From: Seonamhaeicola sp. | GTDB lineage: Bacteria > Bacteroidota > Bacteroidia > Flavobacteriales > Flavobacteriaceae | NCBI RefSeq assembly: GCF_028281565.1 | Contig: NZ_JANQJQ010000015.1 | Coordinates: 62,001 to 126,000, forward strand | Direction: 5' to 3' | Length of the DNA: 64,000 bases | Shown here: piece by piece, positions 3,792 to 37,058 of the stretch | Layout: each line of letters starts with the position of its first letter | How positions within the stretch are numbered: position 1 is the first letter of the stretch | Translations under genes and position numbers: made by a program | Notes under the pieces: generated by a model | Told to the model about the DNA's origin: nothing | Seen by the model: only the letters and a program-made list of their open reading frames with translations | Databases searched by the model: none

Positions 3792-4925
3792 ATGATTAAC
3801 AAACGCCTGCTTATTAAACATCTTTTGGCTCATAATGATGAGAATAGTTTTTATGATAAGAAGCGTAAAGTAGACATAAGTCATAAAGAGGGTAAGGCTA
3901 AGTTTTTAAAACATATTTGTGCACTTTCAAATAGCAACCCAAAGAATAATTCTTATATAGTCATTGGTGTTGAAGATGAAGACAATAACATTATTGGTGT
4001 TGACTTTTTTGACGACAGTAAGATCCAAAACCTTATCAATGCTTATTTAACGAGTCCGCCCATAGTTCAGTATGAAAACATTCCGTTTCCGCATTTACCG
4101 GATGATAAAGTAGTTGGTTTGGTGACCATTCGCCCTACGGGAACCTTAACTTCTCTTAGAAAAAACATCTGGAAATATTACGGCGGCTCGGTGTTTTTCA
4201 GAGATGGTAGCATGAGTATGCCCAAAGTATTTGACATTGAAATAAAAGATGTAAACTCTAAAATTGTTGAGGCCATTGAAAACAATGCCCAAAACAATAT
4301 TGAACATACGCTTAACGGGGTTTTCGATTTTATGAATAAGCGTAAAGACTTTAATGCCCAATACAAAGTGTTTAAAGAGTATTTTGTATTGTGTTGGTCC
4401 GGTCAAAAAAAGGTTATTAAAGATGACGTTTACTATTCAAGAGTTGACATTGAACTCATTAATGAACAGGTACGGTTATTTTTTTCTGCCTTAGATGAAG
4501 TTTCCATTACCTTTAATGATGACAACTTTAAGATCATTGAATATGTGAATCTCGGACTTCATAACAACAATAAGTATTACAAATTAGAAGAAACCATTAT
4601 TGAGTTTGAAGATAATGCCAATTATAATATTGACACCAAACTTCTATTTGAGCCGCCCCAATTTGACAAAAAAATACTCCATCACATTTACAACACCAAT
4701 AACGCCATACTTGAAAAGCTTAAAAAGGGGTTGACACTTACGAAACATGAAGAATTAGATTTAAGAAATTTATCGGCCACCTACTTAATTTGTTACCTCA
4801 ACTTGTTTCATGAGGCCATAAACAAACTCAAAGAAGCTAAACCTTATTTAAAGGCTCATAGTGACGACGTATACCAACTTTACAAAGAGTCTATGCGGAT
4901 TTTAAGGAAAGTAAAATACAGTTAA
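3792..4925 (+). CDS. AlbA_2 (Schlafen-like) putative DNA-binding protein
   Basis: I place the start at ATG 3792; a TTG 27 bases upstream is open but less likely. The first 130 or so residues fit the AlbA_2 domain found in transcriptional regulators and Schlafen-like proteins: an acidic first strand, LKHICALSNSNPKNNSYIVIGVED and a later VGLVTIRPTGT segment. The remaining 240 residues are mostly polar and helical and match nothing I recognise. There is no clear helix-turn-helix or nuclease motif in the C-terminal part. AlbA_2 proteins are sometimes linked to defence or stress responses, but the neighbours here are metabolic. A terminator hairpin follows. Confidence 0.75.
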   Translation: MINKRLLIKHLLAHNDENSFYDKKRKVDISHKEGKAKFLKHICALSNSNPKNNSYIVIGVEDEDNNIIGVDFFDDSKIQNLINAYLTSPPIVQYENIPFPHLPDDKVVGLVTIRPTGTLTSLRKNIWKYYGGSVFFRDGSMSMPKVFDIEIKDVNSKIVEAIENNAQNNIEHTLNGVFDFMNKRKDFNAQYKVFKEYFVLCWSGQKKVIKDDVYYSRVDIELINEQVRLFFSALDEVSITFNDDNFKIIEYVNLGLHNNNKYYKLEETIIEFEDNANYNIDTKLLFEPPQFDKKILHHIYNTNNAILEKLKKGLTLTKHEELDLRNLSATYLICYLNLFHEAINKLKEAKPYLKAHSDDVYQLYKESMRILRKVKYS

Positions 4926-34044: not shown

Positions 34045-35943
34045 ATGAGTGATATCTTAAAACACGAATGTGGTATAGCTGTTATAAGACTTTTAAAACC
34101 GCTGGAATATTACAAAGAAAAGTATGGAAGTGCATTTTACGGTGTAAATAAAATGTACCTCATGATGGAAAAACAGCACAACCGTGGACAGGATGGTGCC
34201 GGTTTTGCCAGTATTAAATTAAACACCAAACCCGGAGAACGTTATATAAGTAGAATTCGCTCCATAGCCCAACAACCCATACAAGATATTTTTGGTCAAA
34301 TTAATGACCGTATTAATAATGAGTTTAAAGCACACCCTGAATATCTGGATGATGTGGCCGCTCAAAAAAAGAATATCCCTTATATAGGTGAAGTCCTTTT
34401 GGGACATGTACGTTATGGTACTTTTGGTAAAAACAGTGTAGAAAGTGTACACCCGTTTTTAAGACAGAATAACTGGATGCACCGTAACCTAATCATGGCC
34501 GGTAACTTTAATATGACCAATGTTAAGGAATTATTTAGTAACCTCATTGAATTGGGACAGCACCCTAAAGAGTATACGGATACCATTACAGTAATGGAAA
34601 AGATCGGTCACTTTTTAGATGATGCCGTTAGTAAAATATACAAAGACTTAAAACGAGAAGGTTATAACAAACGGGAGGCATCACCTTTAATTGCTGAACG
34701 CTTAAAACTTTCTAAGCTTTTGAAACGTGCGGCCAAAAACTGGGATGGTGGTTACGCCATGGCAGGACTTATTGGTCATGGAGATTCTTTTGTTTTAAGG
34801 GACCCTGCCGGTATTCGTCCCGCATATTATTATAAAGACGACGAAGTAGTTGTTGTTGCTTCAGAAAGACCTGTCATTCAAACAGTTTTTAATGTCCCTT
34901 TTGAGGCGGTACACGAATTGCCTCCGGGGAACGCTATTATCACCAAAAATTCCGGTGAGGTTAGGATTAAGGAAATTTTAGAACCCTTAGAAAGAAAAGC
35001 ATGTTCCTTTGAGCGTATTTATTTTTCCAGGGGAAGTGATGCCGAGATTTATCAGGAACGAAAAATGCTTGGTAAGTTATTAATGCCAAAAGTATTTGAG
35101 GCTATAGACAACGATACGAGAAATACCGTTTTCTCATACATTCCCAATACGGCCGAAACCTCATTTTATGGTATGGTAGAAACCGCCGAAAATGAACTCA
35201 ATAAATCGAAAACCAAAACCATTTTGAGCGGGCAACGCAATATTTCAGCTGAAGAAGTCACCAATATACTATCGGAAAGAATTCGGGTTGAAAAAATAGC
35301 TATTAAAGATGTAAAGCTTAGAACCTTCATTACTGAAGACAGTAGTAGAGACGACTTGGTGGCTCATGTTTACGACATTACCTATGGCGTAGTAAAACCA
35401 AACGACAACCTGGTGATTATTGACGATAGTATTGTAAGAGGAACCACTTTAAAAAAGAGCATTCTGAAAATGCTTGACAGGTTGAACCCCAAAAAGATTA
35501 TTGTGGTCTCTTCCGCCCCTCAGATCCGTTATCCGGATTGCTATGGCATTGATATGGCTAACCTGGAAAGTTTGGTAGCATTTAGAGCTGCCCTGGCATT
35601 ACATAAAGACCGCAATACTTACAATACTATTGAAGACGTTTATAATAAATGTAAAGCTCAGGAAGACCTTGATGATAAAGATGTACAAAACTTTGTGAAA
35701 GAGATTTATAATCCGTTTACAGATGAACAAATATCAGATAAGATAGCGGAACTATTAAGCGACGAAAGTATTGAAGCTGAGGTTAAAATAATCTTTCAAC
35801 CTGTTGAGAATTTACACAAAGCTTGCCCTAAAAACCTGGGAGACTGGTACTTTACAGGGAACTACCCAACGGTTGGAGGGAATAGAGTTGTGAACCGGGC
35901 ATTTATTAATTTTTATGAAGGCAATAAAGAACGTGCTTATTAA
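34045..35943 (+). CDS. purF: Amidophosphoribosyltransferase
   Basis: First step of purine synthesis: makes phosphoribosylamine from PRPP and glutamine. Residues about 9-330 are the class II glutaminase domain; Cys9 (KHECGIAV) would become the N-terminal nucleophile after removal of the propeptide. EKQHNRGQDGAGFASI and the HVRYGTFG block follow. The PRPP-binding loop NLVIIDDSIVRGTT is at about 452-465. At 632 residues it is about 125 longer than the E. coli enzyme, with the extra sequence spread in insertions and the C-terminus (residues 560-632); this is the long form seen in Bacteroidota. Confidence 0.92.
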   Translation: MSDILKHECGIAVIRLLKPLEYYKEKYGSAFYGVNKMYLMMEKQHNRGQDGAGFASIKLNTKPGERYISRIRSIAQQPIQDIFGQINDRINNEFKAHPEYLDDVAAQKKNIPYIGEVLLGHVRYGTFGKNSVESVHPFLRQNNWMHRNLIMAGNFNMTNVKELFSNLIELGQHPKEYTDTITVMEKIGHFLDDAVSKIYKDLKREGYNKREASPLIAERLKLSKLLKRAAKNWDGGYAMAGLIGHGDSFVLRDPAGIRPAYYYKDDEVVVVASERPVIQTVFNVPFEAVHELPPGNAIITKNSGEVRIKEILEPLERKACSFERIYFSRGSDAEIYQERKMLGKLLMPKVFEAIDNDTRNTVFSYIPNTAETSFYGMVETAENELNKSKTKTILSGQRNISAEEVTNILSERIRVEKIAIKDVKLRTFITEDSSRDDLVAHVYDITYGVVKPNDNLVIIDDSIVRGTTLKKSILKMLDRLNPKKIIVVSSAPQIRYPDCYGIDMANLESLVAFRAALALHKDRNTYNTIEDVYNKCKAQEDLDDKDVQNFVKEIYNPFTDEQISDKIAELLSDESIEAEVKIIFQPVENLHKACPKNLGDWYFTGNYPTVGGNRVVNRAFINFYEGNKERAY

Positions 35944-35990
35944 ATGGCAATTTCGCAACCATTTACGGTTAAACTATAAAAAATGCATTT

Positions 35991-36042
35991 TGTCTGATAA
36001 ATGTGCGCTTTATCTAATAAATAATCCTATTATCTAAAATAC
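35991..36042 (+). repeat. Three phased 20-base repeats upstream of sRNA copy 1
   Basis: Related words TGTCTGATAAAT, TATCTAATAAAT and TATCTAAAATAC start at 35991, 36011 and 36031, exactly 20 bases apart (about two helical turns). They end just before the -7 box at 36046. They may be regulator sites, or AT-rich coincidence. Confidence 0.4.
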
Positions 36043-36045
36043 ATA

Positions 36046-36053
36046 TAAATTGG
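36046..36053 (+). promoter_or_regulatory. -7-like box of small RNA copy 1
   Basis: TAAATTGG differs from TAnnTTTG by one base and ends four bases before the conserved element. The spacing is the same as in copy 2. No -33 box is evident. Confidence 0.45.
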
Positions 36054-36057
36054 TCTC

Positions 36058-36130
36058 ACCATAACATAAGTAGGTTAAGTTCATGGTAGATTTGGGGCAA
36101 AAAAAGGTGAACTCTCGTTCGCCTTTTTTT
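36058..36130 (+). ncRNA. Candidate small RNA, copy 1 of a tandem pair
   Basis: A predicted transcript of about 73 bases. It begins with ACCATAACATAAG, has a 46-base segment identical to copy 2 except for one base, and ends in a terminator hairpin with seven T. The first five bases (ACCAT) can pair with ATGGT at 36083-36087, giving a 5' hairpin, then an unpaired AGATTTGGGGCAAA stretch, then the terminator. No open reading frame is shared by the two copies. I know no named RNA family with this sequence. Support is the duplication with aligned -7 boxes and terminators; expression is not shown. Confidence 0.6.
36099..36130 (+). terminator. Intrinsic terminator of small RNA copy 1
   Basis: GGTGAAC (36106-36112) pairs with GTTCGCC (36117-36123) including one G-U pair, loop TCTC, preceded by seven A and followed by seven T. 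Confidence 0.85.
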
Positions 36131-36273
36131 ATGCAATTTAGTTTCTGAAATAACCTGATATTCATTCAAAAGAAGACCTGTTTTCACTTCATCCCCTTTT
36201 TTAAGCCTTATCCCTGTTAAGCCAATTTATTAGTAGTTCAACCAAAATATTTTCTCAATCTCCGGTACACCTA

Positions 36274-36281
36274 TACATTTG
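36274..36281 (+). promoter_or_regulatory. -7 box of small RNA copy 2
   Basis: TACATTTG matches TAnnTTTG exactly, four bases before the conserved element. TTTC at 36251-36254 lies 19 bases upstream, one mismatch from the TTTG box. Confidence 0.6.
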
Positions 36282-36285
36282 AAGA

Positions 36286-36356
36286 ACCATAACATAAGTA
36301 GGTTAAGTTTATGGTAGATTTGGGGCAAAAAGGTGAGCGTTCTAGCTCACCTTTTT
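36286..36356 (+). ncRNA. Candidate small RNA, copy 2 of a tandem pair
   Basis: A predicted transcript of about 71 bases. It shares the 46-base body with copy 1 (one change, C to T, which lengthens the 5' stem from five to seven pairs: ACCATAA with TTATGGT). It then has a different terminator hairpin with the same outer bases. It has the better promoter of the two. It ends about 40 bases before the convergent terminator of the superoxide dismutase gene. See copy 1 for limits. Confidence 0.6.
36332..36356 (+). terminator. Intrinsic terminator of small RNA copy 2
   Basis: GGTGAGC (36332-36338) pairs perfectly with GCTCACC (36345-36351), loop GTTCTA, followed by five T. Compared with copy 1, an A-T pair has become G-C by changes on both sides of the stem. 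Confidence 0.88.
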
Positions 36357-36449: not shown

Positions 36450-37058
36450 TTACTTTGCTTCCGCGTAGCGCCTTTCAACTTCATTCCAGTTAATCACATT
36501 AAAGAATGCATTGATATAATCCGGACGTCTGTTTTGATAGTTTAAATAGTAAGCATGCTCCCAAACATCTAATCCTAAAATTGGAGTTCCGCCACAACCA
36601 ATTCCCGGCATTAACGGATTATCCTGATTAGCGGTAGAGCAAATTTCAATCTTACCGCCTTTGTGCGCACATAACCAGGCCCAACCAGATCCAAAACGTG
36701 TTGCCGCCGCTTTACTGAAAGCCGCAATAAATTCGTCTTTAGATCCATAAGTTGCCTCAATAGCATCTTTTAATTCACCTGATAAATAACCTCTGTCCTC
36801 AGGGTTCATGACTGTCCAGAATAATGAGTGATTATAAAATCCACCGCCATTATTTCTAACTGCACCATTATTCATATCTAAATTAGTAAGGATCTCTTCT
36901 ACAGACTGCCCTTCTAAATCGGTTCCTGCAATAGCATTATTAAAATTGTTTGTATATCCCTGATGATGTTTAGAATGATGTATCTCCATAGTACGAGCAT
37001 CAATATGTGGTTCTAAAGCATCGTATGCATACCCTAAATCTGGTAATTCAAAAGCCAT
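36450..37058 (-). CDS. sodA: Superoxide dismutase, Mn/Fe family (Mn-type signature)
   Basis: A 202-residue cytoplasmic enzyme that dismutates superoxide. Metal ligands are His27 (MEIHHSKHH), the His of FYNHSLFW, and Asp and His of [19 protein letters not shown]. Gly in NNGGGFYNH with Gln in [10 protein letters not shown] is the pattern of Mn-type enzymes, although Bacteroidota members can be cambialistic. Single gene with its own terminator. A TAAATTTG box on the minus strand at 37095-37102 is a possible promoter. Confidence 0.95.

Follow-up and report, generated by a model that had tools for sequence, protein, structure and literature searches.

Tandem predicted small RNA genes in the purF–sodA interval represent an RNA family that is conserved across Flavobacteriaceae and apparently undescribed

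Two predicted small RNA genes in the purF–sodA interval

The window, i.e., the complete stretch of 64,000 nucleotides of Seonamhaeicola sp. DNA analyzed here, contains two tandem copies of a short element between purF (a gene with a glutamine amidotransferase domain that owes its name to the earlier note) and the convergent gene sodA, which encodes an Fe/Mn superoxide dismutase (Table 1). The main features that had been described for this element hold. The two copies share a 46-nt body, starting at positions 36058 and 36286, with a single mismatch that maps to nt 25, and each body is preceded, at a distance of four bases, by a box of the TAnnTTTG type (TAAATTGG and TACATTTG, respectively); a 20-nt core yields two matches in the window compared with 0.03 expected from shuffled sequences. 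The terminator hairpins differ exactly as had been stated, with GGTGAAC/GTTCGCC in copy 1 and GGTGAGC/GCTCACC in copy 2, so that an A-T pair is replaced by G-C on both sides and a G-U pair by A-U. In the predicted fold, both copies consist of a 5' hairpin followed by the terminator (z-scores of -3.8 and -4.6, with one of 200 shuffles equal in each case), and the T at nt 25 shifts the 5' stem in the manner described previously. The linker AGAUUUGGGGC is unpaired in this fold in both copies and segment A (Table 1) is partly paired, with only GUAGG open at the hairpin tip. The best fold of one of six folded copies of the family (locus L127) has no 5' hairpin.

The claim that the surroundings of the two copies are unrelated stands for the most part, except for operator-like forms located at -55 in front of both. 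The comparative evidence presented below supports the interpretation of the elements as two paralogous sRNAs of 71–73 nt, each with a promoter and a terminator of its own, transcription itself being inferred. In Pseudomonas, PrrF1 and PrrF2 form a comparable tandem of nearly identical, separately promoted sRNAs, with a sequence, a regulator (Fur) and targets different from those of the sRNAs of the window.

A scan of the window against Rfam detects no family at the gathering threshold, which agrees with the earlier description of the RNA as undescribed-looking and means that one outcome named there as refuting, a match to a known Rfam family, is not seen. Relaxed matches were rejected, among them STnc40 (28.2 bits, cut-off 45) and L10_leader (also below its cut-off), both of which fall mainly on the terminators, and FopS (RF04319; 19.4 bits, cut-off 56, E-value 1.6), which does not meet the Rfam threshold. 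No description of the sRNA was found in the accessible parts of the openly licensed PMC literature; these did not include the transcript supplement for Flavobacterium psychrophilum (PMC9723704), where it might be present as an unnamed transcript.

Table 1. Positions of the genes and predicted features of the purF–sodA interval in the window
Feature	Position	Strand	Remarks
purF, upstream neighbor	34045..35943	+	Glutamine amidotransferase domain
Second operator-like repeat, copy 1	35983..35996	+	11/14; 20 bp upstream
Operator-like site, copy 1	36003..36016	+	-55; 10/14
TAnnTTTG-type -7 box, copy 1	36046..36053	+	Ends 4 nt before body
sRNA copy 1	36058..36130	+	73 nt, T run included; model R1 match
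Pairing segment A, copy 1	36065..36079	+	Complementary to start-codon regions
Pairing segment B, copy 1	36087..36097	+	Complementary to CCCCAAATCTA in target leaders
Intrinsic terminator, copy 1	36106..36130	+	
Weak operator-like site, copy 2	36231..36244	+	-55; 8/14; not significant alone
TAnnTTTG-type -7 box, copy 2	36274..36281	+	Ends 4 nt before body
sRNA copy 2	36286..36356	+	71 nt; model R1 match
Pairing segment A, copy 2	36293..36307	+	
Pairing segment B, copy 2	36315..36325	+	
Intrinsic terminator, copy 2	36332..36356	+	
sodA, downstream convergent neighbor	36450..37058	-	Fe/Mn superoxide dismutase

Distribution and conservation of the family

Homologs were searched for with model R1, which was built from 46 copies and is sequence-only because RNAalifold, applied to a MAFFT alignment of the copies, returned no pairs, the terminators of unequal length being misaligned. 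Among 149 genomes, one from each of 149 genera of the Flavobacteriaceae, the model matches 123 (E <= 0.01; the matches in G009 and G165 are weak), with 1 to 8 matches per positive genome, some of which may be antisense target sites. The genome of the window yields five matches, of which three are sRNA copies, the third one located on another contig. In a set of 59 genomes of relatives, the window's own genome included, all 28 genomes with a match are among the 36 from the same family, and no match was obtained in the 23 genomes from other families; in an order-wide set, the 26 positive genomes out of 196 are all Flavobacteriaceae. Viral contigs (scanned with an exact 28-nt pattern), phages and plasmids yield no match. 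A search with an exact 35-nt pattern, which inflates the body conservation of the loci found in this way, gives at least 116 stretches among the matches listed. Of these, 80 carry names (Winogradskyella and Salinimicrobium were checked), and the recognized genera are Flavobacteriaceae; a few records give no more than Bacteroidetes or Bacteroidia, and Algicola, a gammaproteobacterial name, is the label of one bin.

The genomic context is conserved as well. Among the matches listed, purF and sodA both lie within 2.5 kb of the sRNA at 79 of 113 named loci, with purF alone at 18, sodA alone at nine and neither at seven, so that at least one of the two genes adjoins the sRNA at 106 loci; for three of the 116 loci no copy was located, and the fetched stretches end near some of the copies.

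The terminators were assessed by anchoring and counting hairpins instead of aligning them. From 275 matches, 14 were dropped by the terminator filter and seven more as target-like loci. A terminator hairpin is present in all 254 retained copies, which had been pre-filtered for a T run; its 5' arm exists in 52 different forms, and double changes are numerous. Given that the search accepted no stems other than perfect ones with 5 or more pairs, this pairing arises partly by construction. The -7 box begins at -12 in 93 of the 140 non-redundant promoters and within the range from -12 to -15 in 128 of them (15% in shuffles). Nucleotides 8–24 are at least 98% conserved in the 108 copies kept from 128 BLAST or model matches, a level that the filter, which demanded part of the seed and the T run, itself required in part. 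Hence a promoter of its own and an intrinsic terminator, as expected of a trans-acting sRNA, are present, at the sequence level only. The two RNA genes of the window appear, from these comparisons, to be members of an sRNA family conserved across Flavobacteriaceae and apparently undescribed.

Two variants of the RNA were observed in addition. Sequences of the type CATAAGGCGTAAGTAGGTTAGGTC... form a diverged paralog class that shares loci with normal copies (L031, L158, L175, L180 and L088), and in some genomes an A is inserted in the linker (GGTAAGATTTGGGG; L034, L056, L057, L058 and other loci), these copies being arranged in tandem, with up to six per array.

Predicted targets and the shared operator

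Two segments of the sRNA show complementarity to mRNAs, segment A (CATAAGTAGGTTAAG) to start regions (e.g., CTTAACCTACTTATG), segment B (TAGATTTGGGG) to CCCCAAATCTA upstream of them. The pairing site proposed in the earlier note fits with regard to the AGATTTGGGGC region, which is unpaired in the fold, but the second segment, CATAAGTAGGTTAAG, had been missed along with the targets and the shared operator.

The strongest predicted target of the sRNA is an unannotated small ORF. In all seven genomes of the genus, the best match outside the sRNA genes is antisense and lies directly before the start of this ORF (E-values from 2.9e-8 to 1e-4). Uninterrupted pairing extends over 28 positions in four of these genomes and over 18, 15 and 14 in the others; in the genome of the window, the longest run is 14, with 25 of 26 positions paired overall. 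Three small-ORF leaders of the genus are predicted to pair with the sRNA at -47 to -50 kcal/mol (z-scores of -8.8 to -10.7). The leaders contain repeated complementary sites, including CCCCAAAT near the presumed mRNA start and CCAAATCTACC...CTTAACCTAC in the UTR, and in many genera CTTATG spans the start codon. Yet another complementary site, AATCTACC, is located within the ORF, where CTA encodes Leu in 41 of 45 ORFs, its share among the other 259 Leu codons being 22%, and AAT encodes Asn in 45 of 45 (compared with 61% of 67); in the Pro and Thr codons that follow, the third base is not fixed.

The encoded peptide consists of 26–50 amino acids, or 57 in some cases, from an upstream in-frame start, and its C-terminus has LTKKxFML forms or, in a second class, VAKKVFLLM. 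Comparison with Pfam and NCBIfam assigns it to no family in either collection (one member has an E-value of 0.16 to Tsi6), so that the study of the sRNA exposes a conserved micro-protein outside the families of both. At the two loci seen in full, the small ORF converges with the gene for an oligopeptide-type ABC ATPase and adjoins CoA-transferase genes or a gene for an acetyl-CoA-synthetase-like AMP-binding enzyme. The small ORF (E <= 1e-3) is present in 69 of the 149 genomes, all of them sRNA-positive (Fisher's exact test, 1.4e-8, relatedness ignored); among the 80 genomes without a strong match, 54 are sRNA-positive, i.e., 54 of the 123 positive genomes. At a looser threshold (E <= 0.05), the peptide profile detects 87 genomes, four of which are sRNA-negative (G076, G096, G124 and G160; E-values from 0.01 to 0.045).

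The sRNA genes and the small ORF share an upstream motif, the putative operator. Near -55 of the sRNA promoters, a motif of the ATGCATTTCATCTAA type is found at 11 or more of 15 positions in 54 of 140 cases, with about 1.6 expected, and upstream of the small ORF the operator is matched at 11 or more of 14 positions in 62 of 73 segments compared with 47 of 1460 shuffles. Because the consensus was read from the promoters that were scored, the comparison with shuffles is not independent; independent tests are provided by the counts of the exact motif in the genus, the start-codon sites described below, and the comparison of sRNA-positive and sRNA-negative genomes. Each genome of the genus contains 5 to 10 instances of the exact operator ATGYATTTCATCKAW, the reversed pattern occurring 0 or 1 times. 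In 20 of the 123 sRNA-positive genomes (about 73 Mb in total), the operator occurs 69 times (reversed control, 1; none in G013), compared with six times in 20 of the 26 sRNA-negative genomes (about 48 Mb in total, i.e., smaller genomes on average; reversed control, 5). The consensus of LytTR-type operators points to a LytTR regulator as a possibility; LytTR genes are present in 20 of 20 sRNA-positive and 12 of 20 sRNA-negative genomes, and their presence does not discriminate. The operator is also found upstream of an ECF-type sigma factor and of a weakly TerB-like protein (below the Pfam cut-off), each in two genomes (the L345/L351 and L334/L354 pairs).

Predicted pairing is not limited to the small ORF. 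Among leaders downstream of the operator in the genus, some of them orthologous, 16 of 36 pair with the sRNA at z < -2, compared with one of 37 genes of the window (Fisher's exact test, 1.7e-5, or 1.5e-4 without the three small-ORF rows; relatedness ignored). The single control gene that pairs well is the ORF at 3792 of the window (plus strand; starting with MINKRLLIKHLL; z-score of -5.0, -34.4 kcal/mol); it has no operator of at least 11/14 nearby, and its pairing may be due to chance.

In the start-codon pattern CCAAATN{2,30}CCTACTTATGR, the final base keeps the antisense strand of the common sRNA forms from being matched. The pattern is found 55 times, in 47 of 299 genomes, compared with nine times for its reversed version; within the 149-genome set, it is found in 25 genomes, all sRNA-positive (Fisher's exact test, 0.008, relatedness ignored). 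Examination of the 49 unique sites reveals an ORF of at least 60 amino acids opening at the paired ATG in 38 cases; crude patterns detect a hydrophobic N-terminus in 36 of these and a lipobox-like motif in 13. The other 11 sites open short ORFs, and some of the pattern matches are chance. The operator (at least 11/14) accompanies 24 of the 38 longer ORFs, compared with 1.6% in shuffles and one of the 11 short ORFs. About 15 of the 38 encode a single family of CAP-domain lipoproteins, also present in the genome of the window (C4:79370), so that these sites are not independent. Further predicted targets encode an LRR protein, a Fer4_19 protein and two lipoproteins, one with a Big_9 domain and one with a lipocalin-like match below the threshold. 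The second property expected of a trans-acting sRNA, conserved complementarity to mRNAs from other loci, is therefore found.

Several individual cases deserve mention. At L412 and L418 (G170 and G011, two genera), a hydrophobic peptide of 22 amino acids (MKNIKRIV...SKVFF) starts at the paired ATG and looks like a second tiny-protein target. At L394 (G000 C24:128108), drawn from 20 regions with short single-genome matches, the gene for a 251-aa protein without a Pfam match has TTAACCTACTTATG directly behind a TATATTTG box, with an operator-like stretch adjoining; this is a possible further target in the genome of the window. The match at G000:C19:34937 is on the sense strand and was discarded as a target, being taken as coding and due to chance.

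Mode of action, alternatives and related RNAs

The interpretation in which we have considerable confidence is that a multi-copy, trans-acting sRNA pairs at the starts of its targets, represses them and shares an operator with them in a feed-forward arrangement. Its conservation, promoter boxes, terminators, start-region complementarity, shared operator and co-occurrence with the small ORF are read directly from the genomes compared. The apical part of the predicted 5' hairpin bears CATAAGTAGGTTAAG and the linker bears TAGATTTGGGG, such that nt 8–22 would pair at the start codon and nt 30–40 just upstream, with CCTACTTATG as a pairing sequence on the target side. Pairing across or just before the translation start would most likely prevent ribosome loading on the small ORF and on the mRNAs for the CAP-domain lipoprotein, the LRR protein, the Fer4_19 protein and further proteins, most of which belong to the envelope or are secreted. 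Given that the sRNA and the targets share the operator, one regulator would probably control both arms, and the resulting feed-forward loop may damp or sharpen target expression. Transcription, repression, the loop and its regulator are all inferences, and neither the sign of the regulation nor its trigger has been shown.

An alternative that cannot be dismissed but appears unlikely is that the small-ORF mRNA acts mainly as a sponge titrating the sRNA, with the envelope mRNAs as the true targets. Each leader contains several complementary sites, extending even inside the ORF, and this mRNA is under the same operator as the sRNA, as would suit a sponge. However, the peptide keeps its C-terminus from genus to genus despite differences in the DNA, and the site of the second peptide class spans the start codon, which together suggest a translated, regulated gene. 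The two roles of this mRNA could coexist.

Distinctly less probable is a pair similar to a type I toxin-antitoxin system, in which the sRNA would silence a small peptide acting on membranes, the envelope targets being secondary. The tiny basic peptides of 26–50 amino acids look amphipathic (by eye; toxicity is untested) and the antisense pairing is long, but the sRNA and the peptide are encoded at separate conserved loci, not together with or opposite each other as in such systems, nothing matched on phages, viral contigs (exact 28-nt pattern) or plasmids, and there are many non-toxin targets. Activation of the targets by the sRNA, e.g., through opening or protecting their leaders, can be given no more weight: the common operator makes co-expression plausible and, in many genomes, the pairing extends to the 5' end of the small-ORF leader, but pairing at the start codon is the repressing mode demonstrated for GibS and FopS (PMC7366714, PMC11697453). 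Finally, a DNA repeat or mobile element without an RNA gene is hardly tenable; a dispersed repeat without promoters or terminators was one of the outcomes that the earlier note had named as refuting its inference. The presence of multiple copies, almost invariant over about 40 bp, would suit this reading, but the copies have a fixed locus, promoter boxes and individual terminators with paired changes, and their antisense matches gather at start codons.

For a repressing, start-codon-directed sRNA, parallels exist in Bacteroides thetaiotaomicron. FopS (RF04319), which is bound by RbpB, resembles the sRNA described here in having multi-copy paralogs, a common pairing region and a terminator, and in pairing near the start codons of envelope-protein mRNAs; it differs in the single-stranded 5' end and SusC-type targets reported for it (PMC11697453, which also states the relation between GibS and FopS). 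GibS, described in 2020 as the first trans-encoded RNA of the Bacteroidetes with identified targets, is likewise trans-acting, with two adjacent pairing regions and start-codon targeting without a Shine-Dalgarno sequence, but is 145 nt long and has metabolic targets (PMC7366714; the sequences were not compared). By analogy, blocked ribosome loading, the mode reported for both, is the most likely mode here. Rfp18 from F. psychrophilum shares conservation in flavobacteria and predicted mRNA targets, but these are metalloproteases and an adhesin, paired via the third of its at least three stem-loops (PMC9723704); for the purF–sodA sRNA only a 5' hairpin and a terminator are predicted, so that neither its predicted structure nor its targets agree with those of Rfp18 (no sequence comparison was made with Rfp11, Rfp13, Rfp15 or Rfp18). 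Working in a manner similar to FopS and GibS, yet not being FopS by the Rfam model, the RNA is filed as a new family.

A broader hypothesis, for which we consider the odds to be about even, is that of a family-wide single-operator riboregulon, in which one unidentified factor would drive both the tandem sRNA and the mRNAs, for the micro-protein and surface proteins, that the sRNA shuts off at their start codons. Under the same hypothesis, the operator would occur only where the sRNA occurs and vice versa, and the sRNA site would, in one micro-protein class, have become N-terminal coding sequence. If this is true, the riboregulon is a built-in feed-forward brake on surface remodeling. The sRNA is present in most genera sampled from a large family of ecological importance, and the target predictions at base resolution, together with the shared operator, make riboregulation in Flavobacteriaceae directly testable.
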